The notes under the pieces were generated by a model. That model did not search any database and was not told where the DNA came from. It worked only from the letters and a program-made list of their open reading frames with translations. The translations under genes were made by a program, and so were the position numbers. From Owenia fusiformis (Eukaryota > Annelida > Polychaeta > Sabellida > Oweniidae), in NCBI GenBank assembly GCA_903813345.2, contig CAIIXF020000003.1, positions 27,171,248 to 27,235,247 on the forward strand: a stretch of DNA of 64,000 nt. Reading direction: 5' to 3'. Positions within the stretch are counted from its first letter, which is position 1. Each line of letters starts with the position of its first letter. Below, one piece after another: positions 1,402 through 56,400 of the stretch.

Positions 1402-4400
1402 GCGAATGAAAGATGTCTCCAGTTAACAAATGGATGCGGATATGTTGGCTTACTAGATGCATTGCAGGTATGTCATCATTAGACATGTTATAACAGAGGT
1501 TAAGTTGGAAAGAACACAAATGCAAATGTTTAACAATGCCTTATAGAGTATGAAGGTGCAAAGAAAAAAGATTTCATAAGATCCCCATATCAACAAATTG
1601 ACAGGAGGACAGTATTCCCTGGGACTCCTAGTATACATATGTTTACAATCAAGATCTTCCAAATGCATGTAACTCAATATTTTTAGTTTCTTCATTCTTA
1701 ATGATATGTGACAAGAATTTATCCATCTTTGTCAAACTGAATTGCTTTCCCAAAAAGTATATTTTATTTATTTCATGTATCAACACTCAACTTTTATTTT
1801 TAGGTGTTTTATTTATGTTTTCAAATGTTGCCCAGTGTGCTTTCTAGCAGTAATGATCAATTTTTAATATATTATTTCAGAAATACTTTTCTGCATATGT
1901 GATGGAATTCCGTAGAGTTTTGACTAATTTACGAGAAAAGTGTAAGATTGACAATCGTAGTGAGGCTGATGATTGGTCATTTTTTCAACACTCTTTACGA
2001 ATGATACAGACTTGTGGTAAGTGAATTTAGCAAATAAAAACATAAAAATTTTGTACTGTAGAAATTCTATTATACCTGATAGTATATAAATTTCAGTTAT
2101 CTTGAACTGAAACTCTTAGAAGCTTCTATTTGAAGGAACTTGACTTTTACAGTATGTTGTCTTGTTTTGAAACATGACCATTGTAAACTTGTCATGATTA
2201 TATTTAAGCATTGCAAGATTTTTCATAACCATATTTACGTATTGCATAATTTTTCATGACCATATTTACGCATTGTGGCATTTTTCATGACCATATTTAC
2301 GCATTGTGGCATTTGTCATGACCATATTTACGCATTGTGGCATTTGTCATGACCATATTTAATCCTTACATGTTTCACAACCATGTTATTTTAGGAGACC
2401 TCATCCTGCACTTAGATGAATTAGATGGCGCTGTGATCAGCAACCTATTAATGTCTGCCGGAAAATATTGCGTACCACTCTCTCCGTCAACTATCAAAGA
2501 ACTGGACAAAAGGTAATTATACATTTCAAGTGGAAACAAATGAGACATTTTATAGCCCTGGATACAAGCTAAATAACCATTGGCATTTTGTCACTAAGCT
2601 CAGCATGAATAAATAGGCTTACCTTGTATCTGAACACTCTTTCATACAGTGAAACCTGTAAAGTGGAACACCTCTAGAAGTGGAACACCTCTGTGAGTGG
2701 AACACTTTTCAGAGTCCCAAGACCAACTGACTTAATATAAATGAACCTCTGTTAGTGGAACACCTCAAATGAAACAAAGGTGTTCTTCTTAAACAGATTT
2801 TTCTGTACTTATACAGTTATATGCAAGACTATGTAAAATGTCGGAAGGAGTCTACTTTAAAAAAAACATAAGAATGTTTTCCTCCCTTAATAATCTTAAA
2901 AACGATTATATGTTGAAGATTTAAGATGTAGAAATGTCCCAATTCCAAAGATTTGAAAGAGAATTGTTGCTTATTAATCTATTGATATAACCGAAATATT
3001 ATGTTATTTTGATGAAATAAAGTCCAAATTTTGTGGGAATAGGTATGTGGGCAAAAGAAAAACTGAAAATTTTTGAAAATGTGATATAGAAGTTTGTATA
3101 ATCATCTCAACTATTAGGATTGATTTTTACAGAGGCACAACTAATCAGACACCGTTCCACAAGTTCACAAGTCTCTATCTAGAAGACCCCAGCCAGCAGT
3201 TGGCCTTGGAACATCTTATCACACAGGTGGAAGAAGGTAAAATGTTTATATGTAATAGGCATATTTTAACTCTATATCTATCTATTTCTAAAAATGTTAA
3301 GAGTGAAATTGGGAGAGGCATCACATAGGCTTGAGGCTTGATGCAGGTGTAGCTATTTTCAAAGAGTGTATATATTGGTGAACTGTTAAGTTGCAGGAAC
3401 ACCTGATGAAAGTGTTCACATTGAGAGGTGTTTACATTTTCATGTCACCACCAGAAGTGGTGACATATTGTTATAGTCTCCAGCTATTTTGTGGATGGTG
3501 TTCGGCAGTTGGTGTTTGATATTTGGTGGTTGGTGTTTGGCATCTGTAACAAATGGCAGGTTGTGACATTTTGCATGTTAATGCCTTGTAACAAAGTTCT
3601 GATATGGGAGTCAATGACACATCAAAATATGGAATCTAAAAGATATTTACAATCTGAAATGTTCATCCATTAGAGTTGCTCACTATAGCATGGATATTTA
3701 AAAATGTTGTTGTAAAATATAAGTGGTATCCATTGAACACTAAAAGCTTTTATACCTGCTTACCACATAGAAAGCAATAGACCTGTTTATGCTCAAGTTT
3801 TATGAAGATCAAATCAATATTTTAGAGATTCTACTCCTTTTGAGATTTAATTTAATTTGTAGCTCCATGTATATTCTGTTTTCCATTTTAGGTGACACAC
3901 CTTCAGTTTTACCTGAGATAAAGCAAGAGTTTTACAAACTTAGCGAGCTTGTACATAAGTTAGCATTCGACATAGCATTTGCTCCTTTGAAGCATGACCT
4001 TGTGGGGTTGTCAACGATGGAGATATGGACATCCCAAAGTGCTGGTGGTGCCGTTACATCAGACTTACCTACTTTTAGTCTTTCTCCTCAAGAATATATT
4101 ACAAAGGTAAAATCATGAAGTAGAATGCATGATTTTATGTTTTCACATGATATAGTGGAAAAAACATTAAGAAATAATGTCATTAAATCATATGGAGTAA
4201 AGTCCATACTTTGTGGTATATTGAATATATTTTTTAAAGGGTTTATTTTGATTTTATTTATTTTGTTAAATCACGTTGAATAATTCGTTGGGATTTTGAT
4301 TTGGAATATTAGGGTATAAATTGTGAAAATATTTCGGTTATTTTTTAATGACAAGTGTATTGATTTTTCATCTTCAGATTGGTCAGTACTTGATGACTCT

Positions 4401-7390
4401 ACCACAGCAGTTAGAGCCATTCACCATGCAGGACAACCCAGCATTGATTGTTGCCTTAAAGCATGGCAAGCTACCATTCACAGATATACAAGGTACACTT
4501 TTGTGTAAATAAGGTTTCATTTACAAATAGGATAAACTTTTTTTGCATATCAATTCTATATTTGTTAAGAATATTTACTTTTTTGTTTTATCATATCCAT
4601 ATTGTCATTCATATTTTGTGTCTCATTTTTGCATACTATTTCAAATTGCAGAAGTGCCTGAACACATAGCTGATGTGTGGTTGGACTCTATATCAAAGGG
4701 CACTATGCACACCTACTGTGAGGAGATCACTCACATTTTGCATCTTATCTTTCACATATTTCACATTACAGAAGTGCCTGAACACATAGCTGATGTGTGG
4801 TTGGACTCTATATCAAAGGGCACTATGCACACCTACTGTGAGGAGATCATTCACATTTTGTTTCTAATCTTTCACATATTTCACATTACAGAAGTGCCTG
4901 AACACATAGCTGATGTGTGGTTGGACTCTATATCAAATGGCACTATGCACACCTACAGTGAGGAGATCTTTCACATTTTGTATCTTATCTTTCACATATT
5001 TCACATTACAGAGGTGCCTGAATACATAGCTGATGTGTGGTTGGACTCTATATCAAAGTGCACTATGCACACCTACTGTGAGGAGATCATTCACATTTTG
5101 CATCTTATCTTTCACATATTTCACATTACAGAGGTGCCTGAATACATAGCTGATGTGTGGTTGGACTCTATATCAAATGGCACTATGCACACCTACAGTG
5201 AGGAGATCTTTCACATTTTGCATCTTATCTTTCACATATTTCACATTACAGAGGTGCCTGAATACATAGCTGATGTGTGGTTGGACTCTATATCAAAGGG
5301 CACTATGCACACCTACAGTGATTCACATTTTGTAACTAATCTTTCACATATTTCACATTACAGAGGTGTCTGAACACATAGCTGATGTGTGGTTGGACTC
5401 TATATCAAAGGGCACTATGCACACCTACAGTGAGGAGATCTTTCACATTTTGTAACTAATCTTTCACATATTTCACATTACAGAGGTGTCTGAACACATA
5501 GCTGATGTGTGGTTGGACTCTATATCAGGCCTGTCAACTGTCCCGCAATTTGCGTATTTGTCACGCATTTGCTGAAGAATTTGAAGTCACGCCAGTTTTT
5601 TTTGCGTGACACAAAATGTCACGCAAATACGCATTTTTCCTGGTAATTGTCACGCAAATATGTTTCTGTAAAAAAAATTTCAAAATATGTTTATGATACG
5701 GTAAAAATACGAACGTCGGAAAAAAAACGAACGCAATTTGTTCGGATTTGTCACGCGGATCCCGTATATGTCACGCATGTTCATTGGAAATTTTCGTACC
5801 TCCCCCCCCCCCCCCCCCCCCCCCCCGTTGACGACATCGCGAGCGTAGCGAGCGCGAAAAATTTGAGGTGATAAAAGTTTAGCAAAGGTGCTCAAACTTT
5901 GGCCAAAGGTGTTTAAAAGTTGGCCAAAGGTGTTCAAAATTTGGACAAAAGTGTTCAGATTTGGACTTCGGTGTCCAACATTTGTAAGTCACTCATATTA
6001 GGTGGTCCCAAGTTGACAGCCCTGCTATATCAAAGGGCACTATGCACACCTACAGTGAGGAGATCTTTCACATTTTGTATCTTATCTTTCACATATTTCA
6101 CATTACAGAGGTGCCTGAACACATAGCTGATGTCTGGTTGGACTCTATATCAAAGGGCACTATGCACACCTACAGTGAGGATATCTTTCACATTTTGTAT
6201 ATAATCTTTCACATATTTCACATTACAGAAGTGCCTGAACACATAGCTGATGTGTGGTTGGACTCTATATCAAAGGGTACTCTGCACACCTACAGTGAGG
6301 ATATCTTTCACATTTTGTATATAATCTTTCACATATTTCACATTTCAGAAGTGCCTGAACACATAGCTGATGTGTGGTTGGACTCTATATCAAAGGGCAC
6401 TATGCACACCTACAGTGAGGAGATCATTCACATTTTGTATCTAATTTTTCACATATTTCACATTACAGAAGTGCCTGAACACAAAGCTGATGTGTGGTTG
6501 GACTCTATATCAAAGGGTACTATGCACACCTACAGTGAGGATATCTTTCACATTTTGTATCTAATCTTTCACATATTTCACATTACAGAAGTGCCTGAAC
6601 ACATAGCTGATGTGTGGTTGGACTCTATATCAAAGGGTACTCTGCACACCTACAGTGAGGATATCTTTCACATTTTGTATATAATCTTTCACATATTTCA
6701 CATTACAGAGGTGCCTGAACACATAGCTGATGTGTGGTTGGACTCTATATCAAAGGGCACTATGCACACTTACAGTGAGGAAATCTTGAAGGTGAACACA
6801 ATAACAGCTCATGCTACACGCCAGATGATAACAGATATAGGTAAGACTAACCCCATAGCTAACAGAGGGGACTTAAGACACTACTATGATTTCTACCAAG
6901 AAATTTTTTAGTCAAATTCAATAATATTATTCACATTTTTTGTCAAAATTGATCAAATAGATACTTGTTTTCTTGGTAAAATCCTCATATTATTTTTCTG
7001 TCTTCAGTTGAATATTTGGGAGGAAATAGCCTCAGAGTGTGAATATGACTCCTTTATAAAGCTTTCTTATATTAAATAAATATTCTCTAATGAATACTAC
7101 TTTATGCATACAATCACTCTCTGTCATTCAGATATCATTCCATGTGATAAATCCCATATCGATTCCCTTATATATTTTTGTGAATGTAGCATTAATATCC
7201 AAAACAAACTTCACTTGCAGATTATCTTTGTAATGTGCTGGATGATCTGGGTCTTCACCCCACTGAGAACTTGAAGAACATAGAAACGCTTCTGAAGGCC
7301 CCACAAGATGACTTCAATGAGCTTACAGAGAAAATGCCTGTTAGATTGTATAGAATGATAGCTGGTATGAGAGACCTCAGTATAGATTGA
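1402..7390 (+). CDS. COG7: conserved oligomeric Golgi complex subunit 7, C-terminal part
   Basis: COG7 belongs to lobe B of the COG tethering complex, which captures retrograde vesicles at the Golgi. Exons with GT-AG borders: 1402-1467, 1881-2016, 2395-2512, 3133-3236, 3892-4106, 4378-4492, 6709-6840, 7221-7390. Joined, they give 351 residues plus stop with all phases closing. Family landmarks include ERCLQLTNGCG, IGQYLMTLPQQLEPF, HGKLPF, ADVWLDSIS and the C-terminal block LDDLGLHPTENL, matching roughly the last 45% of the 770-residue human protein. The N-terminal half must lie upstream of the window or be missing. The seventh exon has about 14 competing acceptors because its 5' part is tandemly repeated (4606-6785). 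Acceptors at 6109, 6229, 6349, 6469, 6589 and 6709 all stay in frame to the stop, whereas those before 5364 run into a stop at 5371-5373 if the array is not spliced out. Confidence 0.93.
2189..2366. repeat. 31-bp minisatellite in COG7 intron
   Basis: About six head-to-tail copies of a unit around TCATGACCATATTTACGCAT TGTGGCATTTG (31 bp). Copies at the 3' side are nearly identical and those at the 5' side are decayed. It lies just before the acceptor of the exon at 2395. Confidence 0.8.
2647..2805. mobile_element. pogo/Tigger-like MITE, 159 bp
   Basis: Begins TA|CAGTGAAACCTGTAAAG and ends ACAGATTTTTCTG|TA, a TA target duplication with the CAGT...ACCTG terminus typical of pogo/Tigger elements. 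GTGGAACACCTC is repeated three times inside. It lies in a COG7 intron. Confidence 0.55.
3441..3578 (-). repeat. dispersed hairpin-ended repeat, copy 1
   Basis: Starts (as read on +) with the palindrome TGTCACCACCAGAAGTGGTG followed by ACAT, then an interior rich in TTGGTGTTTGG, and ends GTGACATTTTGCATG. Related copies lie at 22859, 27836, 38411 and 45643. This one is inverted relative to them. It lies in a COG7 intron. Confidence 0.75.
4606..6785 (+). repeat. tandem array of a 120-bp acceptor-plus-exon unit in COG7
   Basis: Unit starts downstream of TTACAG at 4652, 4772, 4892, 5012, 5132, 5252, 5364, 5484, 6109, 6229, 6349, 6469, 6589 and 6709. Each unit holds about 46 bp of intron end (pyrimidine-rich, TTTCACATTACAG) and about 74 bp of exon start encoding EVPEHIADVWLDSISKGTMH. 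The unit is 40 codons and open throughout, so reading across the intron part yields ITHILHLIFHIFHIT. The first copy's intron part is diverged, marking the ancestral junction. The last copy diverges after GAGGAAATC and continues into unique COG7 exon. The copy at 5252 lacks 8 bp (next start at 112 bp), which breaks the frame, and the copy at 5484 is split by a transposon. Confidence 0.95.
5528..6024. mobile_element. hAT-like non-autonomous element inside the COG7 array
   Basis: Flanked by an exact 8-bp duplication CTATATCA (5520-5527 and 6025-6032). Ends are GGCCTGTCAACT on the left and AGTTGACAGCCCTG on the right, an imperfect inverted repeat; the left end may lack two bases. The interior has repeated TGTCACGCAAAT motifs, a run of about 26 C (about 5801-5826) and a repeated GTTCAAA(A/C)TTTGG stretch. 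No transposase is encoded. A decayed relative is at about 17840-17935. Confidence 0.8.
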
Positions 7391-22014: not shown

Positions 22015-22081
22015 AGTCAGTTACTCCAGTTTTTTATCCTATATTCTACCAATTTTCTAGTGCTTTTTCTACAAGAAATTC

Positions 22082-22508
22082 GAGTGATTGCCTACTTGGT
22101 TTGATTATCATAAAAATTGAATATTTCTTTCATGTCCGTTCAAACAACATGGCTGCTGTACCTATGGCATAATGTTAATGATGATCAACAACATAAAATA
22201 TGTAAAATATGAACCTTTTTTGTAATTGGAGTGATTTCCTTCTTCGTTTGATTATAATAAAACTTGAATATTTCTTTCATGTTCATTCAAACAACATGGC
22301 TGCTGTACCTATGGCAGAATGTTTCTGATGATCAATAACATAAAATATGTAAAATATGAACCTTTTTGTAATTGGAGTGATTGCCTACTTGGTTTGATTA
22401 TAATAAAAATTGAATATTTCTTTCATGTTCGTTCAAACAACATGGCTGCTGTACCTATTGCGGCATGTGTTACTGATGATCAAAAACATAAAATATGTAA
22501 AATATGAA
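22082..22508. repeat. three tandem copies of a 146-bp unit
   Basis: Units start with GAGTGATT at 22082, 22229 and 22375 and share TTGAATATTTCTTTCATG and AACAACATGGCTGCTGTACC. Copies are over 90% alike by eye. Confidence 0.85.
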
Positions 22509-24225
22509 CCTTGGAGTTGTCATGAAAAGGTGGTCCAGTACTTTTAAAGCCCTTTAAGTATATATCAGCATATGAACAAATATTCAGATATAATTCATGT
22601 ATGTAAACTCAAATGTTGACAGTAGGCTATTTCAACATTTCTATTCAGTAGACATAATAAAAACAGATAAAATATACAATATCACAGTTATCTGTTGAGC
22701 TATACAAAAACTCAAAATAAGTAGAAAACTGCAAAATAATAAAAAATGAATGCAAACACTTTAAGATGTAAGTGTTCATGTACGGGTGTTCATAAAAAAT
22801 ATCTCATAAGATTGTGAAAAAAATGAATTTCATGAATAAAATCTAAACAAGGCATAAACATGCAAAATGTCACTACCTGCCATTTATTACAGATGCCAAA
22901 CACCAATTGCCGAATGCCATCCACAATTAAGTTGGAGACTATAACAATGTCACCACTTGTGGTGGTGACATAAAAATATTGACTTTACAAATGTGACCCT
23001 GTGAAAGACAATGATTTTCTCAAATTGTAATTCAAGATATTTTCTAGAAATCCAGTATGTTCCTGTGACCAACCTTGGAAATATTTCAATTGAAAAAATA
23101 CAAGACCAAAGGATCAACCGTGAATAACTTTTCTGCGTCCACTAACATTGTTGCATCCGAGTTCATGAATATGATAGGGATCCTAATACGCTCAACCACA
23201 TCATATGTTTGAATATGCATAGAATAACTACTCCAAAGGACATGGTATAACCAGAGCGAAGTACACAATACAATCGGGTCCAAGCTCCTGTCTAATGAAA
23301 TAATGGAGATTTCAAACCTTTGAAAATATTAACTGATTTGATTGATATTAACTTTCTCATGAAAGATCCACAATTTTTTTACAGACCAGTCAATGTGAAA
23401 AATTAGGCGAACTGGAACATAATTACCTCAATTCTGATTCTGTTTCAAGAATTATTATTCAACAGGAATTAATAGCAGATACATCAAAGTGGGGAGGTAA
23501 CAGGAGGATCCTTCTAACTCACACTTATGTGCTAAATTGCCACTCTCACAAAACAAAGCCATATGCCTATATTTTATATTATCAAAGAAAATCTAAACAA
23601 ACTGCAAAGAAAGTAGAAATAACAAAAAAGTTTATTACAGATCAAACTAAAATTATATTTCATACTTCATTAGTACAATTTTTGAAAATATCAGAAGGGC
23701 TCAATTTCTCAATATGAGCCAGGCCACAGGAAAGAGGGTCTCATCACAGATTTTGTAAGAATTTTTTTGTTTATCTTAAAAAGCACAAAGAGATCTTTCA
23801 AACGAGCCATGGCACATGTCTCAACAATTTTTCCTTGCAGATATAGACCAAAAGACAGATTAGAATTTACAACATTTTCTTCTTAATCTTGGTCACATTT
23901 TTGGCTTTTGTATTCCAATTTTAATTTCTGTGATAAGACAAGTTTTCCTATGTTTCGGCTCATATAACAATACAATATGATTTATCAGTTTATGTCAATT
24001 ATTACACTATGCTTGCAATTTGTCCTCATGTCAGGCTTCTTAAAGACAGGGGATAAGTTTCTTTAGTCCATATAAACAAAGTTTCAATTTTCTCATAATA
24101 AATGCTGAAAACTGCAAAACTACTTTCCAAACCATATATAAGATGTGAATTTATTTTTTGATTGGCATTTAGTTAAAAGATTAAAGCCCTTTGTCTTATG
24201 TATTATAATTTATAACATTTGTCAA
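22509..24225. other. AT-rich stretch without a gene
   Basis: Apart from the dispersed repeat copy at 22859-22973, I see no exon, inverted repeat or array. Short frames here have no recognisable content. Confidence 0.4.
22859..22973 (+). repeat. dispersed hairpin-ended repeat, copy 2
   Basis: From CATGCAAAATGTCACTACC through CAAACACCAATTGCCGAATG to the terminal palindrome TGTCACCACTTGTGGTGGTG. Confidence 0.75.
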
Positions 24226-24786: not shown

Positions 24787-25487
24787 GTTAAGTTGCTAAT
24801 CCATGACTTAATGTGCAATGAATAACTAAGTCTGCATCCAAAACAAGAGTTGGCAATTCATTACTGAATTAGCAATCCATAAATGAGTTGGCAATCCATG
24901 ACTTAATATGCAATCAATAACTGATTCTGCAATCCAGAACAAAAGTTGGCAATCCATTACTGAATTAGCAATCCATAAATGAGTTGGCAATCCATGACTT
25001 AATATACAATCAATAACTGATTCTGCAATCCAGAACAAAAGTTGGCAATCCATTACTGAATTAGCAATCCATAAATGAGTTGGCAATCCATGACTTAATA
25101 TACAATCAATAACTGATTCTGCAATCCAGAACAAAAGTTGGCAATCCATTACTGAATTAGCAATCCATAAATGAGTTGGCAATCCATGACTTAATATGCA
25201 ATCAATAACTGATTCTGCAATCCAGAACAAAAGTTGGCAATGCATTACTGAATTTGCAATCCATAAATGAGTTGGCAATCCATGATTTAATATGCAATGA
25301 ATAAATGAATCTGCAATCCAAAACAAGAGTTGGCAATTCATCACTGAATTTGCAATCCATAACTGAGTTGGCAATCAATGACTTAATATGCAATCAATAA
25401 CTGAGTCTGCAATCCAAAACAAGAGTTGGCAATCCATTTCTGAATTTGCAATCCATAACTGAGTTAGCAATCAATGACTGAATGTTT
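24787..25487. repeat. higher-order minisatellite (19-bp motif, 96-bp unit)
   Basis: A motif of 19-20 bp beginning GCAATCCA is repeated about 36 times. Five consecutive variants form a 96-bp higher-order unit that repeats almost exactly at 24945, 25041 and 25137, with more diverged units at the edges. The 96-bp length is a multiple of three, which explains an open minus-strand frame of 182 codons; I do not regard it as a gene. Confidence 0.9.
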
Positions 25488-30400: not shown

Positions 30401-33400
30401 CAAGGTTTTATCGACTACCTGAATCTATGAGTTCATCTTGGCTATCTCCAGACTTTACATGTTCAGGCACAGGGCTAGCAGCTGGACTAGAGTATTCTGA
30501 GCACAATGATGAACTATCGATACTACTTGCAACTGATGGCTCCATCTGCTGGGGAAATAGTTTCTGAACTGGTGCAAGAAGTCCGCTTGGCTGAAGGTAT
30601 CCTTGCGCAATATTGTACACAGGGGGAGACATTAGTTGACGCGAAGCATTTTGTGGAGAGCGTTTGAATACTACGTGACCATTGGGGTCGAGCATTGAGA
30701 TCCCATTCACATTTTTGTTTTCTCTAAAGGTAAAAATAAATTAATTTAAAATGTAACAGGTGATGAAGAAACGTTTTAAAAATCAGACTGTGATATAAAG
30801 TGATTGCGTAAAAAATTTTGAATAAAAATGAAAATTCTTAAGTTTTGTTCTGAAACAGAAAGATTTTACGTTTCTTTATCAAATAAACACATGCCTAACC
30901 TGACGTAAAAATTAAATATTGCTTATCATTTCTTACTGTCATCTTTCTCATTCTTAATTGGTTGAACATGAATCACATGACAAAAATATTCGGTGAATTT
31001 TTTTTTTCGGGGAATACCTGTCCCTTTCAAAAGTAATATGAGAATACACATAATAGTAACAACAAAACAAAATATTTGTAAAATAAACAATTCAATTATT
31101 CTCTTAACTTACTTGATGCAGTTGATTTCTCGCCGCAGTTTCCCGATTGCACCTTCTGTAAGTCCCTGATTTTGAAAATCTTTGTCTGACAAGCGTAAGA
31201 GCTGAAATAATTTGTGATAAATTTCTGACTGACATTTATGTTGATCTGACCATGGGCTTTCAAGAGAGTCTTTATACAAAAAATTACCATTTTATTATGA
31301 ACAAAATTAATAATATGTTCTGAGACTTTGTAATATCAACACCAAGAATGATGGATGAAATAAATAAATAAAAATATAAACACATAAATATATTCCAATT
31401 GTAAACACCAAAGTTTAAAAACAAAACATTTCCTTGTTGCTTAGTACCATGTTGTAAATAAGTTTATTAAAATAAAGTTAGAATTGATTCATAAATATCC
31501 ATACTAAATACTGAATGATCAGTTGAGCTAATAAAAACTGGCAACCATTTAATCATTTAACTTTAAGAATGAAATATTGTGACAGTGTATTTGTTAGAAT
31601 CTAGCATAAATACCTCTTCAAATGTGTAAGTACTGAGTCTGTCTGCGTATTTGTGAAGACGTATCTTCTTCAGCCACTGCTGTATTGCGTTACCTGGCCT
31701 TGGGGAGGACTGAGGGGAGTTCCCTGGGGGTAGTACCGGAGAACTACCGCCACTAGTTAGCACCATTGGAGAGCAGAGGGAGGGGGAGATATGTGGAGAA
31801 GAGAGTGGGGAGGGGAGAGGAGATCCATGGGGTGAAGGCGAACTTGCCACAAACGTATATGTGTGTCTGAAAAATAAATTCAAAACTTACAATTCTGAAA
31901 AAGAGGACATATAAAGGAATGACTAACTAATTATTTAATCAGTTTATTTTGAATTAAATTGTGGTAAGAACAATGAGGCCTGCAGACATGGTAAATGTAA
32001 ATAAAGAGACGATAAAAAACATACCTATGGTTTGTGACTAGGGTGTTGACATTGTTGATTGGCGCAGATTGTTGCACTGGATCAACCATCTTACCAATAG
32101 GGGGAGTTACTGAAACAATACACAAATCATTGACTTCAACATGTTTCAAAATAATTTTGGAATAATGGAGGAGGAGTTTTTTTAAGTCATTGTTTATTTT
32201 TGAATTAGACCATATAGTTTGGGATATTTGGGGTTTTGTTATCCTTATGACCAATATTCCTCAATGTATCTTTTTGCTGTGCTTTGTAATGGGTATCTGT
32301 ACCATCATAAGTATGGACTTAAATAAACAGAAATTATCTGCAATTCTATAAAAATCATATTTACTGTTCATGAGTAGCCAAAAACTTAAAATACAATAAA
32401 GACATATAAACCCCATCTCTTCATGTTTGGTCGCAAATAAAATATTGCAAACCATAGAAATGATTATTCCAGCAAGCTGTAAAACGTAATACAGGGTATT
32501 CATAAACTCTCTTTACACTTTACACAGACTATGTAATTGCAAAGACACTTTATGGACACCCTGTATATTTATTTTATTTTAATATTACATATAAAACACT
32601 CAAAGCAACTTTGACTATAGAATTATATTATCAACTTGATATAGTAACATTACCTGGCTTGATGGGAGAGTCACCAATCTGAGAGTTATAAATCGTGCAT
32701 GTTTTCACTTGGCCTGTCGGGCTGATTATGCTGCCATCTTCAGGGGGTTCTAAAAAGCATGAATCAAATGTTTAATTAGAGTTATGAGAAAGGACAAATT
32801 AACATCTTGAATATAAAAGAAACATGATAATATTATAAGCTCTTAATTTTGCCAAAAATTTATTGGCTCTGACTGGCTGTTCCGAAGAGAGCATTATATA
32901 CAGTATAGCATTTGATTGGTTACATGTAAACCTACCAGTGTTATATACTGGCTCTGATTGGCTGTTCCGTAGAGACTTGGCATGATTTATAGCATTTGAT
33001 TGGTTACATAAAGACCTACCAGTGTTATATACTAGCTCTGATTGGCTGTTCCGTAGAGACTTGGCATGATTTATAGCATTTGATTGGTTACATAAAGACC
33101 TACCAGGGGTATATACTGGCTCTGATTGGCTGTTCCGTAGAGACTTGGCATGATTTATAGCATTTGATTGGTTACATAAAGACCTACCAGGGGTATATAC
33201 TGGCTCTAATTGGCTGTTCCTTAGAGACTTGGCATGATTCATAGCATTAGATTGGTTACATAAAGACCTACCAGGGGTATATACTGGCTCTAACTGGCTG
33301 TTCCTTAGAGACTTGGCATGATTTATAGCATTTGAGTGGTTACATGAAAACCTACCAGGGGTATATACTGGCTCTAATTGGCTGTTCCTTAGAGACTTGG

Positions 33401-36400
33401 CATGATTCATAGCATTAGATTGGTTACATAAAGACTAAAGACCTACCAGGGGTATATACAGGCTCTGATTGGCTGTTCCTTAGAGACTTGGCATGATTCA
33501 TAGCATTTGATTGGTTATTAACTGGAGATGATTTGGCAGAACTGCTGCTTGTTGTCTGGTCATCAGTCATCCCATTGAAGAATGTCACCACATGGTCACA
33601 TTCCATGATATATGAGGGCAGAGCAGCTAGTTGTCTGAAGCAGAAATTGTCATCTGAAATTCCTCTGTTTATAGTACATTCAGTAACAATCTAAATCACA
33701 TTATATATCATAATATGACTGACAGTATTCTGATTACAGTTGCCATGCCTTAATTGATGCATTGATGCAACTGTATTAATAGATACAAAATTACAACTTA
33801 AGGTGGTTCTAACTTTTTGTGATCACCCTGTATATCCACTTACTGTGTATACTCAACAACCAATGACTTGATGTGATCCAGTGATTCCTCCTTCAGTGCA
33901 CGCTGCTTGCTGTGCAGACTTTGAAAGTATGGGATTTTCCGTTTCTGACGATGTGCTCCAGCTTCTTCGGGAAACAGTTTCAACAACTAAAAACAAAAGA
34001 TGAACATCTTATGTTTATGTATTTTTTGATGCTACGAAGAGTAAAATTGGTAGAGAATAAATGGTTTAATAAATTAGTAAAATGGTAGAGTTAATTGGTG
34101 GGACAAATATAACCAATGCACTGTGGCCCTTCATTTAATAGTGGAATAAAATGGCCGATTAAAATGATGTAATTAATTGTTTCTTGGATGAAAAGATTTT
34201 GGACCGGATAATTTAATCATACATGTTATTAATCTATTACCATGTCATCATATGTGCCTTAAGATTAATTCTAATGTAATTTTAAATGGCTCACCTTTGT
34301 GTGAAACTCATGTAGGTCCTGGTAAGTTTTACACACCTCTGAGATGTCTCCATTGTCCCAGCTCACCTGGAAATACATGAAATATACTGTAAGTGTATAA
34401 CACATTGAATTCACAGTCGAGCAATATTTGTAGATTTGAACATATTCTTTTCACATATTCATGTTTTCTTGATTTTTGCAAAAGCTGCAATGTGCCAAAT
34501 GTTTCATGTTATACAGTATACAATTTTAAATCTGTGGCATTTCGAATTAGTGATGTTACATTCACACAATTATATGCAGATTTAAGATGTCCATAAATCA
34601 TATGTGTTTTACAGTTATGATTGATTTGCAGTTTAACCTGTCTCATCTGAATGCCACTCAGAATTTTAAACATGGAAGTGATTACAAAATTAGTGTTTAC
34701 ATGAAGGATTACCATAGTAAGAGACTTGGCTAGATTGTAAATTGTAGATTTATTTTCCATGTCATTTCTCTCTTGAAGCTTTCCTACCTGGCTCATTTGT
34801 TGTCCGTTTGAAATATTGCCATATATGGGCAATGGATAAAAGTTCTGACCATATCTGAACAGTTTTGTTGAATAGTGATCGCTAATTCTCATTAGAAATC
34901 AAATTTCCTCGGTACTGTTTCTTCTAGCCGCTTATCTTATTTGATTAGTTTTGTTTTAATATAGTGTTTGGATATACACCTTAGCAAAGGCAGTGCAACT
35001 CAATGAGTGTACATCAATAAAATAGAACACAAGCATCTTTTATAATGCAGACTCTAGTGGTGGGACTCGCCCGAATTTTCGGACTCGATTATCGGGGATC
35101 AAACTGACGACGATTAATCGAATAAATTCGATTTTTTCCAAAGTTTTGAAGGGAATCTCCCAACCCGCTGCCAACCACTTTTTTTATGTAAATCATCGAT
35201 GTTATTGTAAAAACAAATAAAGTGCAATGTGTTACATACCTTCAAACATGTTTTTTGTTTATTTTATCAACTCTAAAGGCGAATAACAAATAAAAAAGAC
35301 GCCCGGAAGTAAAATTTCGAAATGCATTTAATTATTTTGCTATATTAGCGGTTCCAGCTATAGAATTTGCAGCACCGCAAAGGTCAACTTCGAAACGAGG
35401 CTCTGACCCTATTATCCTACTGTAGCATTTCGTCCAGAGCTCACTGAGATAAGGTTAGATCCCGGAAGTAAAAGAAATGAACAAAACAAATTGTTTTCTA
35501 CATGTTATTTTACGTTTTATTAGCTGATTATAGATCAACATGTAAGTACTTTTATAGTAAATAGTGTTCCTGACTCGAATTGACGTAACCCAACTCGAAT
35601 GGTACACAATTCGAGCCGAAATCGGAGGTGAAAACAAAAATCGAATTTCAAATTTTTTCCCCCAAACGAGTGATTATTCGAGTTGCCGATTTATCGTAGC
35701 ACCACTAGCAGACTCTCACCTTAAATATGTAATTTACATCCTGGTAAGTCATTTTGAATATCTGAGCCTCTACTGATTGTCTTAAATTAGGTCCAGCTCA
35801 TTTTAATTTGCTCAACTTTGACGTATGAAATTTCTGAATCCTCCAGTGTTAATTTTTAATATTCACTCCAATCTCTGTTGTATTCTTTCTGAATCTTAGT
35901 CCGGGGAATATACATAGATATAATTTATTGATCCATTCTAAAAACCTTTGTTAAAATTCCAATTTAGATTTCTAATATCAACTTATAATTGATATTTAGT
36001 CACAAAATCTAACTTTGTAGTTGTATTTTTTAAGTAAATGCGTATTGCGAAATCTTTAACAAAAACTTCATTCAAAAGGCGACAGGCATTCAAAATTAAG
36101 TTATCATAACATAGTCCAAATGCTTAAACGCTGGTGCCTAGAGCAAGAAAAACAAACACAATATATTGATTTTTAAGGAAGTATAGTTTAACTTTTTAAG
36201 TTCATTATCTGATTTTGAATATACTATTCTTAAATGTGTCAGTTTAAACAAGGTTATATTTCATGAACTGATATAACAAAAGGGTGTAGGAGATAAAAAC
36301 TTATGTAGCATATGAATGATATTTATATTGTTATAAAAAACCAATGTCAAAAGTAAGTGATACTAGATCTATAGACTAAAGATTAACTAACTTTTTTCTC

Positions 36401-42400: not shown

Positions 42401-45347
42401 TGTACTTTTAATTGTACTGCACTTATAAAAATAACAAGATATATTTTAAGACTATTATTAAGAGACACTTTGCAGAATAAGCAATACCATTTTAAGCATT
42501 CCTGAGTTACTTACATCCTACATCACCCTAACAACATAGCAACTTTGTGAATCAAGAAATCCCAGTAAAATGTGAACAGTCAGCATTTGTAAATACACTA
42601 TCAGTTTCTACTAAAACATGTAATACAGACACAGAGCTATGAATCAACCAACAGGTGTTAAACAGTTAAATTGAAAATACTAAAAGAGATTACTACAAAA
42701 TATGATATAGAACCTAATGTGGTAAAGTGAATCAACCACATGTCACCTTGACACAACAAATATTTTCTGCAATCATATTCAATTTTTGAATCATGGTCTG
42801 AGCTGAATAGCCTGAAAGCCCAATATTTTGGATGTAAAGCCAGGTGTAAAGTTTCAACATTGGCTCTATCTCCTTGTTTCAACTGTAGGCATATAATTCT
42901 ACAAATCAAACAATGAGGAATTTTCTAATTTTGCTTTAAATCTAAAATAGGTCAAAATAGATTTTCAACTAAGTGCAATTTTCAAACTGGACAATGCTTA
43001 AAGATCACTGTAGTTCAATACAGAAGAAAAAATGTGTAGATCTGTTCTTTATATCTTGTCAATATGACATTATGATACAGTAAAGTGTCAAAACACAGTA
43101 AGTTGTTTTGGACTTGCAGTACAGTAGTAAAAAATTACATTCTACCCGAGTTCCAGATGTATCTAACAAATACTGGTATTTCCTTAATGAACCTACGCAT
43201 TATTGCACGCTTATGTAGTTTCATTTTCAGGGTAAATTTTATCCTTTTCTGTCTGATAGCATGTTGTGAGCACAGTCACATTTCAAGAAAATCCCAGTTC
43301 ATATTTCTCTAGGGAATTCATTTTTTGTTAAATAAAGACAAACTTTCAGCTTTTGTCCTGACTCCTGAGTATTTCAAAATATTCTCATTTTATCTCTGGC
43401 TGGACCAACTGTCCCACTATCATAGCATAAAAACACTCCTGAATATGAGAGTTTTTTCATATACATGTGTATACCTATTACTGACTTACAGTCCTTTTGT
43501 GAAGTTTTCAAATAAAATTGGTAAGTATTCTTGTCTCGTCTACTAATCCCCTGATCATATATACCTGTAACCTATTATCTTGGTAGATGTGGTACCTTGG
43601 TAGATGTGGTACCTTGGTAGATGTGGTACCTTGGTAGATGTGGTACCTTGGTAGATGTGGTACCTTGGGAGATGTGGTACCTTGGGAGATGTGGTACCTT
43701 GGTAGATGTGGTACCTTGGTAGATGTGGTACCTTGGTAGATGTGGTACCTTGGTAGATGTGGTACCTTGGTAGATGTGGTACCTTGGTAGATGTGGTACC
43801 TTGGTAGATGTGGTACCTTGGTAGATGTGGTAGCTTGGGAGATGTGACAAAATGCACTGTTTCTGAATGTCAATCATGATGCTTTATGTTGAATCATGCT
43901 CTCCAGATTTTACTATTTTTTATGGCTGTACAAAATATTTGCAATAAAAATATCAAAAAAAGTTAACAATACCCTTCTTTCAGTTAAGACCCCATTGTTT
44001 CCATACAAGAATTATAGAATGACCGCCACATTAGGTTAATAAATAATTCTAAAAAATGGTCCAAAATCATAAATATTAAAAAATGGTCTCTAATGTTTCT
44101 TAAGTATATGCTGTCATAATATATTAATGCAATGTTAATTAAATTTGAAATTGAAATTTTTCAAATACTTTGATCCTTTTCTTTTGTTTAATTCATTAAA
44201 CATTAATAATCCCCTCTCAACCTTTTTTCATTCAAATTCAATGTCGAAATTTTAGAAAATACTGCCATTTATCAAAATATTTTTTAAGTCAAATTCAATG
44301 TCAAAATTTTAGAAAATACTGCCATTTATCAAAATATTTTGTAAGTCAAATTCAATGTCAAAATTTTAGAAAATACTGCCATTTATCAAAATATTTTGTC
44401 AGTCAAATTCAATGTCAAAATTCTAGAAAATACTGCCATTTATCAAAATAATTTGTAAGATACAATACACAATATAGTACTATACTTATTACTATCTGCA
44501 GAAGCTATTATTATCTTCTTGCTGATAGCGAATCAGATGCTTACATGACCTTGTCCTCTTTAGGTAACCAACAACTTCAAAAATAGACATGTGAGAGACC
44601 TTTTCTAACCTCAAATATGACGTTCATAACTGAAAGTCATCAAATCTGATGTTATAATTGATTAATTATTGCTTTCTGATTAATATAAACAAAATAAAAT
44701 AATCTGATCAGTCTATTAATATCTCCTAAGGACTCTTTTATTTCATTAACTGGGGTAATGATGAGAAACGATAAAAAAGGATTTAATAATAAATTAAAGG
44801 AACCCGTTTCTGAGGTATTGAGGTATGCTTAAAGCCATTGCTCGTATCGAAGTGACTTGTATAGTCAAATGAACATCAAAGTCAAAATGATCTAAAAACT
44901 GATCAATTCTACCAGACTCATTTTGCCAGTGGTGACTTCTTGTAAAAAAGCATAATCAAGGAAGTAATTTGAGGATTAACGATTTTTGGTGAAATATTTT
45001 GAATTTCAAACGTTGAATATAGATTTTCAATAAATGTTCTACTTTTGAGGACACTGACATCTATCAAGTTACAGGCCTGTAGCATGATTCTCTGTGATGA
45101 TTTCTTACTATTAAATATTTATAGTTATATACTGCTGAGTTAATATAAAGTACTAAATATAAAATATGAGTGGCTTATATATACGGTTTTATATAAGGTT
45201 TTATTGTAGGAAATTATTTGTATGCAGTTGGTGTATTTGACTTGAGTCACACTTTGACTTGAGAAAAAAGCCCCTTCATGCAGAAATATATTGTTTATTA
45301 TATTAACAGACATACAATTGCTTCATAATGACCAGGCCCATAGCCCC

Positions 45348-53479: not shown

Positions 53480-56400
53480 TCAAGATAGTACTTCTCCAGT
53501 ATGTGTTTTTCTGTGCATTCTCAATGATCCCTGAACTCTGAAGCATTTTGAGCAGAATTCACATTGAAATGGTTTTTCTCCAGTGTGAATCCTCCTATGG
53601 TTTCCCATCTGTACCTTTTCCCTAAAGGATTTGGGACAATATTCACATTTGAATGGTTTCTCACCAGTATGAATCCTTCTATGAACCATCAATGTAATCA
53701 ACTGTCTAAAAAATTGTGAACAAAATTCACATTGAAAGGGTTTCTCACCAGTATGAATACGCACATGATTCAAAAAAATTCTCCGCTGAGAAAAAACTTT
53801 AGAGCAATGTTCACATTTGAATTTCTTTCCTATAGTACTAGATATAGTATGCCATTTCATGTGTTTTTTCAATGATGTCTCAAATTTAAATTGCTTGGAG
53901 CAATGTTCACATTGAAATGTATCACCATCTGCATGTAATTTCCTATGTTTAATTAATGAGGCCTCATTAGTAAAATGCCTTGAACAATGTGAGCACTTAA
54001 ACTTTTTATGCTCAATATGAGTTTTTGTGTGGAGTAAAAGTTCCTTCTTCATTTCAAAAGACTTCAAACATGTTTTGCACTTATATCTTTTTGTGTGCAT
54101 TGCTAAGTGTTTTCTTAAGGAAGTTTTAAGTCTAAATTGTGATGGACAATATTCACACTTGAATGGTTTTTCATCATTGTGTATTCTTCTATGATAATAT
54201 AAGCTTGCTCCCGATCTAAAACATTTTGAACACTGTTCGCATTTGTAAGGTTTCTCTCCAGTGTGAAGCCGTCTATGAACTACCAAACTACTTTCATTTT
54301 CAAAACATTTTGAACAATGTTCACATTGAAATTCCTTTGTGTGTAATCGCATATGGCTCTTAAGGCGATCTTTCAGAGCAAATTGTTTTGAACACTGTTC
54401 ACATTTTAATAGTTTTTTATCACTGTGTATTCTTCTATGATAATATAAGCTTGCTCCCGATCTAAAACATTTTGAACACTGTTCGCATTTGTAAGGTTTC
54501 TCTCCAGTGTGGAGCCGTCTATGAACTACCAAACTACTTTCATTTTCAAAACATTTTGAACAATGTTCACACTGAAATTCCTTTGTGTGTAATCGCATAT
54601 GGCTATTAAGGCGATCTTTCAGAGCAAATTGTTTTGAACACTGTTCACATTTGTAAGGTTTCTCTCCAGTGTGAAGCCGTCTATGAACTACCAAACTACT
54701 TTCATATTCAAAACATTTTGAACAATATTCACACTGAAATTCCTTTGTGTGTAATCGCATATGGCTCTTAAGGCGATCTTTCAGAGCAAATTGTTTTGAA
54801 CACTGTTCACATTTGTAAGGTTTCTCTCCAGTGTGAAGCCGTCTATGAACCACCAAACTACTTTTTTGAGTAAACTGTTTCAAACACTCTTCGCACTTAT
54901 ATGATTTCTCTCCCAAATGTACTCTTCTCCTATGAGTTGTTAAATTGTACGCTTGCTTGAAACATTTTGAACAATATTCACACATGAAGGGGCTTTCTCC
55001 CGTGTGAACTCGAATATGATTTTCTAATTCAAAAGATGTCAGAAAGTATTTTGGACAATGCTGGCAATGGAAGAGTTTTTCACCTGTATGTATTCTTCTG
55101 TGAAAGTTGAGATAATGTATGGTACTGAATGCTCTGTTGCAATCAACACATATGAATGTCTTACCCATATGAACATTCTTTTTGTGGTTACACAAACTTG
55201 AACTTCTTGTAAATCTTTCTGGACATGCATCACATAGATATGGTTTTTCTCCAGTATGAATTCTCAAGTGACGTTTTAGGCCATCTTTCCTAATAAAACA
55301 TCTCATACAATATCTACATACAAGTTGTTTCTCTTCATGTCTAGATTGAACATGAGTTCTTAAATCTTGTCTAGAAGTAAAGACATCAGAGCACAGTTTA
55401 CAATCAAATAATCTACATGATCTATGAGCAGAATTGAAATGCATTTTCAAGTCTTGCCTAGAAGTAAAAACTTCAGAGCACAGTTTACAATCAAATAATC
55501 TACATGATCTATCAGCAGAATTGAAATGCATTTTCAAGTCTTGCCTAGAAGTAAAAACTTGGGAGCATTGTTTACAATTAAATCTATGAGCAGAATTAAA
55601 ATGGGCAATCAAATCGTCTCCACAAGTAAAGGGTTGTGAGCAATGTTTACATGAATATGGTTTTAAACTATGCTTCATAGAATGTGTGGCTAGCTGCATG
55701 TTTGTTTCAAATCTATTTTTGCAAAGATTACACTTGAAGTGCAGGTACCTCTTTAAATGATTCCTCATTCTAAACACAGATTTCAATTTCTTGTTGCATA
55801 AACCACATTTAACGTTGATCTTATGAGAAGTCATCAAATGAGTCATCAGGTCAATTTCCTTAAAGTAGCTGCTTGTACAAATATCACACTTAAAGTGTTT
55901 GTATGTTTGTTTATGATTCCGAAAAGTCACCATTGTTCTGAAATTCTTGTTGCAAACTTTACAAAGTGTCTTCCTGCCATGAATGGTTTGCTCTCGACCT
56001 TTGTCAAAGGGGCCCGATGGCTTTTGTTCGAAGTAATAAACTCTGTAGAGCTCTGAAATGAGGAAATAGAAGTTAATGTTTCAAGAGTCTATATGACAGT
56101 ATTTTTGTTACTATTTTGTTAATATTGTCTTTTATGCAAACATTTTTATTTTGTTCAATTAAAGCCCCATTTTTTCAAACATAGGGCAGCAATCTTTAAA
56201 AGTGGGCTAAAAGTTATTTTGTGTCTTTTTTCAGTAAAAGTACAGGACACAGGGTGAACAAGATTGCACCATTGAATTTAATACTAAGAAGGATGAATAG
56301 ACTTGAGTTTGACAATATTATGATGATTGTGTCATAATCAATGTAAATTCCAGACAAAAGTTTGCATAGAAATGCAAAGTATACTCTACAGACAAGACTT

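Follow-up and report, generated by a model that had tools for sequence, protein, structure and literature searches.

The closest described counterparts of the locus reported here are the amphioxus 'mirages', in which an exon-intron boundary is present in tandem copies. In the available portions of two papers such copies are described in Adh3, in the globins BflGb6 and BflGb9, in TnC and in PGBD5, with length polymorphism and with splicing that is reported or suggested to be undisturbed (PMC3087553, PMC3902484). The array that we analysed in the COG7 gene of the annelid Owenia fusiformis has the layout of BflGb6, in that the end of an intron and the start of the following exon are repeated together. 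As far as those portions describe them, the amphioxus mirages also share with the arrays reported below units of 10-160 bp and an edge copy that lies outside homogenisation. Copy number is larger here, with 14 copies in COG7 and 18 at a kinesin exon against 6 and 3 in the two amphioxus BflGb6 haplotypes described there. Unlike the amphioxus mirages, the COG7 array has a transposon inside it, the host is an annelid, and the frequency of such arrays was measured across gene families. The assembly has three above-cut-off matches to Eryth_link_C, an annelid haemoglobin linker domain, which point to an annelid and not to amphioxus; searches with COX1 and GFP gave no match, the GFP result being uninformative. 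A limited literature search found no clear case of a mirage outside amphioxus; in earthworm metallothionein, the accessible part of one report describes duplications of the fourth exon that are absent from the transcript (PMC12783039), and these may be related. Tandem copies that span a boundary are therefore the known part of this phenomenon, and its frequency and lineage seem to be the new part.

Internal tandem repeats at exon-intron boundaries of human genes can change splicing, according to the available part of a further report (PMC2812944). The human repeats, on that partial account, occur in paralogues that arose by recent duplication, and new introns can form from them, whereas at COG7 the normal acceptor of a single conserved gene has been multiplied. 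Zhuo et al. reportedly described, in 2007, introns derived from tandem arrays. The COG7 array resembles NAGNAG and other alternative 3' splice sites in that several AGs compete for one donor, but differs from them in that a whole 3' splice site, with its own branch-point-like and pyrimidine sequence, has been copied at 120-bp distances. According to the accessible part of one transcriptome-wide study (PMC9225289), the choice between competing 3' sites separated by 20 nt or more is made at the first step of splicing, and on this distinction whole 3' splice sites 120 bp apart would be selected at that step.

The array at the COG7 acceptor

The window, meaning the whole 64,000-nt stretch that we analysed, corresponds to C3:27171248-27235247 (contig CAIIXF020000003.1) of the 498-Mb Owenia fusiformis assembly, and its features are listed in Table 1. 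When joined, the COG7 exons give one open frame to the stop codon, passing through 1402-1467, 1881-2016, 2395-2512, 3133-3236 and 3892-4106 and ending with the three exons in the table. The Pfam COG7 profile (PF10191) covers the last exons as 567-635, 634-673, 680-720 and 721-771 without insertion, and use of the last acceptor restores a continuous COG7 domain. When the assembly was searched with this profile, 13 of the 17 matches followed the order of the profile along C3 between 27111501 and 27178619 (E 2.9e-11 to 0.28; profile positions 1 to 771, over 67 kb), and the remaining four lay on other contigs with E values of 0.247 or worse. Given the ordered matches on C3 and the weakness of the other four, this appears to be the sole COG7 gene in the assembly, and the search revealed no second copy, processed copies included.

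Table 1. Features of the COG7 array, in window coordinates, and boundary arrays found elsewhere, in assembly coordinates
Feature	Position	Strand	Description
COG7 exon upstream of array	4378..4492	+	Pfam COG7 positions 634-673; donor GTACAC at 4493
Whole tandem array	4605..6785	+	120-bp units, 14 acceptors, transposon-interrupted; from sequence reading, TRF and unit measurement
First intron tail	4605..4651	+	divergent edge copy outside homogenisation; 37/47 aligned columns agree with consensus
Five copies	4652..5251	+	acceptors before 4652, 4772, 4892, 5012 and 5132; frameshift and stop from each
Copy 6	5252..5363	+	112 bp; frame-shifting 8-bp deletion
Copy 7 and first part of copy 8	5364..5525	+	exon starts 5364 and 5484; frame from 5364 stops in array, frame from 5484 stops inside transposon
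Target-site duplication CTATAT	5520..5525 (left copy); 6025-6030 (right copy)	+	
Transposon in copy 8	5526..6024	+	499-bp non-autonomous DNA transposon; ends CAGGCCTGTCAAC / GTTGACAGCCCTG
Five copies	6109..6708	+	acceptors before 6109, 6229, 6349, 6469 and 6589; open and in frame into exon
Authentic COG7 exon	6709..6840	+	132 nt, last acceptor; Pfam COG7 about 680-720; donor GTAAGA at 6841
Last COG7 coding exon	7221..7390	+	stop codon included; Pfam COG7 positions 721-771
L068, kinesin exon	C2:23265900-23270300	minus	18 acceptors 158-159 bp apart; 17/17 extra copies meet a stop
L128, UCH-family exon	C9:8171400-8173900	minus	11 acceptors 150 bp (50 codons) apart; 10/10 extra copies open and in frame
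Further boundary arrays (kinase, kinesin, UCH)			L024, L037, L053, L096, L100, L103, L107, L119, L140, L156, L162

The repeated unit spans the exon-intron boundary and is made up of about 44 nt from the end of the intron, the AG, and about 76 nt from the start of the exon. The AG is kept in 14/14 copies and 11 of the 13 spacings measure 120, the other two being 112 (an 8-bp deletion) and 625 (the transposon). TRF gives a match of 93% and 95% within the two halves of the array, which rules out a chance origin, and a 250-bp piece of the array compared with the whole assembly returned 13 matches, all of them within the array. We rejected mutually exclusive exons as an explanation because only the last copy has the remainder of the exon and the donor GTAAGA. 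Other minisatellites lie in the same window at 22077-22512, 24791-25483, 32864-33517 and 44232-44459, with periods of 147, 96, 84 and 57. On the minus strand, at 53480-55933, an 817-residue open frame overlaps internal repeats of 246, 162 and 87 bp, and by eye it has the look of a zinc-finger gene.

The transposon is present in high copy in the genome and has 13-15-bp inverted ends, a poly-C tract and 6-bp target duplications. A genome search in which 40 of 1885 candidates were scored gave at least 29 other near full-length matches (93-99%), and the three other copies that were read all have identical ends and 6-bp target duplications. Given that the element sits inside copy 8, its insertion is younger than the array.

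Sequence diversity over the 12 intact copies (those at 5252 and 5484 being left out) was 0.050 in the exon part and 0.066 in the intron part, the latter over the same copies minus the first, and the exon part is thus hardly more conserved. The upstream copies show 11 distinct codon variants, eight of which are nonsynonymous, where 78% would be expected from the sequence, and these coding changes look neutral. The last copy departs from the consensus by three silent changes and no replacements (probability 0.01 if neutral), a figure built on small numbers and on events that are not independent, since one of the three changes also occurs in several upstream copies. Inner intron tails differ at 0-6 of 44 sites and the first tail at 10 of 47 aligned columns, and the exon part of that first copy resembles the others. 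It is as if the edge copy had escaped an exchange by which the inner copies homogenise, as in other minisatellites.

The original prediction of about 14 copies of a 120-bp acceptor unit ahead of the COG7 exon was borne out, with 14 acceptors read and measured, and all six acceptors from 6109 through 6709 proved to be in frame and open into the exon, as it had proposed. It had further held that acceptors before 5364 lead to a stop; these do, but so do 5364 and 5484, such that eight of the 13 upstream acceptors (4652 to 5484) run into a stop and five are open in frame. In six of the eight the stop results from the copy-6 deletion; of the other two, one stops at a TAA in the following copy's intron tail and one inside the transposon. 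The extra 40 residues that each copy would add include an intron-derived hydrophobic stretch (for example IFHILYIIFHIFHIT; mean Kyte-Doolittle hydropathy 1.84).

Boundary-spanning arrays in three gene families

Each copy contains only a short piece of exon, which makes repeated profile matches a weak guide to such arrays; the COG7 profile search listed the repeated exon start once only. We excised the exon regions of three families and compared each region with itself, a procedure that worked on the COG7 array as a control. The kinase sample comprised 60 of 145 listed matches, part-domain and chosen by eye before their flanks were seen; the kinesin sample comprised 59 of 144 listed matches taken in order of E value, with matches containing at least two stops and repeated C2 matches dropped; and the UCH sample comprised 37 of 73 listed matches, namely every match that lay beyond the C9 tandem array and contained no more than one stop. 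Names such as PAK-like, MAP2K-like, GSK3-like (L007), KIF4-like (L068) and USP-like (L128) were assigned by eye, the searches themselves giving the Pfam family only.

Arrays touched 3/60 kinase matches (all three boundary-spanning on reading), 6/59 kinesin matches (five including the boundary) and 3/37 UCH matches (all three including it). Boundary-spanning arrays, verified by reading of the sequence, are thus found at 11/156 exon matches, about 1 in 14 (95% interval 3.6-12.3%), where the matches are not all independent, as several come from one gene (for example L100 and L107) and some regions overlap. By boundary the count is 13/312 (2.2-7.0%; 7 acceptors and 6 donors), and both counts miss arrays lying between a profile end and an exon end where the two differ, and stand apart from two large arrays seen directly in the match lists (L068 and L128). 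With those two added to the 11 sampled exon matches, the arrays show the recurrence in several genes that is expected of mirages. Three further candidates were not counted, namely L105, where the array overlaps the match by 3 bp and the splice site lies outside it, L125, where the array starts at the donor and has no exon part, and L070. We also rejected L007 (C10:2256896 and 2257074) as a mirage, as it consists of two tandem kinase exons that have diverged and that each possess an acceptor and a donor. These two exons, at L007:2401-2711, encode the same segment of the catalytic loop, lie 47 nt apart and are perhaps mutually exclusive.

The arrays vary in form. L096 has a 33-bp unit in 19.6 copies (TRF) before a kinesin exon, L100 has 11 donors 53-57 bp apart and L119 has 7 donors. 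Arrays occur at both exon ends in L024 (kinase) and L156 (UCH), the latter being one exon flanked by 7 acceptors and 9 donors. The exon 3' boundary is repeated at L024, L037, L100, L119, L140 and L156, as it is in amphioxus BflGb9 according to the available text. In the donor array of L037, around 451-828, the same inserted element, whose ends resemble inverted repeats, is present in two of the units, and turnover of that array seemingly continued after the insertion. The extra copies of L068 show 2/8 distinct variants that are nonsynonymous where 75% would be expected (probability 0.004), with two of the silent variants always occurring together, and this pattern would fit either frequent refreshing from the authentic exon or translation of some copies. 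The L128 array repeats the NTCFMNC region, which we take to be the catalytic cysteine box, and its copies show five replacing and four silent variants.

We examined the reading frame of the extra copies in 15 arrays, with L096 left out and with COG7, L068 and L128 coming from outside the sample. The AG or GT is kept in 92/97 extra copies. An open, in-frame product is available from 23/97, which fall in four arrays (COG7 5/13, L128 10/10, L037 3/6 and L100 5/10), and the other 11 arrays have no such copy. Frequent use of the extra copies would break many of these genes, which argues that the copy adjacent to the exon, the last acceptor or the first donor, is the one normally used across the arrays.

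Across the first 119 regions, tandem arrays occupy 7.3% of the flanks (600 bp to each side of the match), 10/238 match edges (the L105 edge included) and 2.1% of matched exon, so that in these regions exon edges are straddled a little more than half as often as nearby intron is filled. For the 37 UCH regions the corresponding figures are 5-22% of the flank, depending on the 100-bp bin, and 4.9% of the exon. Neither the first 119 regions nor the UCH regions showed an excess of arrays at exon edges that would imply a splicing-linked mechanism.

Splice-site choice and competing explanations

In the 13 inner COG7 copies the AG is preceded, at a distance of about 25 nt, by TATCTAATC or a near variant of it, which by consensus we take to be a branch-point-like sequence; the first copy differs there. 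Each inner copy therefore looks like a whole 3' splice site, and possession of its own branch-point-like sequence would place the choice at early 3' splice-site recognition rather than in a scan from AG to AG. The intron from the donor at 4493 measures 159 nt to the first acceptor and 2216 nt to the last. Given that coding continuity requires 6709, exon definition would be the natural mechanism. The available part of the transcriptome-wide study reports that under intron definition the upstream 3' site is strongly preferred, and that this preference is significantly reduced with exon definition (PMC9225289).

These observations make it highly probable, in our judgement, that the COG7 array is a boundary-spanning minisatellite, or mirage, spliced mainly at the exon-proximal acceptor 6709, and this is the likeliest of the readings that we weighed. 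A segment that joins about 44 nt of the intron's end to about 76 nt of the exon's start is tandemly repeated before the COG7 exon; the inner copies are alike, as if they exchanged sequence, whereas the edge copy has diverged, and the transposon later landed in one of the copies. The proximal acceptor would mainly be used through exon definition, with a 132-nt exon and a good donor close behind it, and the upstream copies would leave with the intron, giving a normal COG7 protein. Exon edges seem to constrain array turnover in this genome only a little, and boundaries have been multiplied in this way at many other acceptors and donors. Against this reading, the first acceptor lies so close to the donor that the upstream preference of intron definition would favour 4652, five upstream copies are open and in frame, and the mostly silent variants of the 18-copy kinesin array are unlike simple neutral drift.

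An alternative is that acceptors 6109-6589 are also used, so that COG7 would gain between one and five 40-residue repeats. This would agree with six open, in-frame acceptors (the authentic one included) and with the UCH-family array that is in frame at 10/10 extra copies, but we regard it as unlikely, since the repeat is in part intron-derived and strongly hydrophobic, would interrupt a domain whose profile is continuous, and shows no coding constraint across copies, while 11/15 arrays have no frame-compatible extra copy at all. The original prediction had offered an isoform ladder, and as a selected feature such a ladder is not supported, given the stops from 8/13 upstream acceptors, the hydrophobic 40-mer, the neutral-looking changes and the mostly out-of-frame extra copies of the other arrays; its proposal that the array is a natural test of splice-site choice is supported. 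It had also described the unit as exactly 40 codons, which agrees with a spacing of mostly 120 bp but would carry no special meaning: if the exon-adjacent copy is normally used the length is due to chance, which gives such a length in some arrays. Retention of the AG in all upstream copies, and a first acceptor only 159 nt from the donor, could instead point to a regulatory brake, in which the eight stop-containing acceptors make part of the COG7 mRNA unproductive and so set its level. Such a brake could be compatible with a mirage; it is nevertheless quite improbable, as the copies have diverged so little that chance alone would preserve the AG in most of them, the COG7 array gave no sign of selection, and arrays of this kind would be expected to be unstable in copy number.

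The copies might also be tandem micro-exons, each a 66-nt exon closed by a GTGAGG donor with 54-nt introns between. ACA/GTGAGG is present at +66 in 9/14 copies, with a tenth after the transposon, and short introns may exist in this genome, as the 47 nt between the tandem kinase exons of L007 suggest. Three copies have the weaker ACT/GTGAGG, however, and one lacks the GG. The authentic exon itself holds ACAGTGAGG, a possible donor in most copies, which must be skipped there to make COG7; the putative donor therefore cannot be in strong use, and the micro-exon explanation is very improbable. We attach an equally low probability to an assembly artefact. Tandem repeats can be mis-assembled, and an amphioxus mirage was aberrantly assembled in a draft, according to the accessible part of that report (PMC3087553), but the COG7 copies differ from one another except over a few identical stretches, a transposon interrupts one of them and a deletion marks another, the 2.2-kb array lies within a 34.9-Mb contig, and similar arrays occur in many genes.

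Extending the reading of COG7 as a mirage to the genome, we see even chances that about 7% of exons have a multiplied splice site, acceptors and donors both, in up to about 18 copies, with the exon-adjacent copy nearly always used. In such a genome gene predictors may misplace exons. Choice among equal splice sites is usually tested with built constructs of few copies. The natural arrays described here offer 2 to 18 near-identical sites in ordinary genes and on both sides of exons, and in many of them differences between copies tag the individual sites, such that RNA from Owenia fusiformis would reveal if the copy nearest the exon is chosen in every case and how fidelity falls as copies become more numerous. 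If our reading is correct, the genome would provide a natural experiment on exon definition, at genome scale and in a non-chordate. Its independent arrays, which differ widely in copy number, would by extrapolation run into the thousands and would form standing raw material for new exons and introns.
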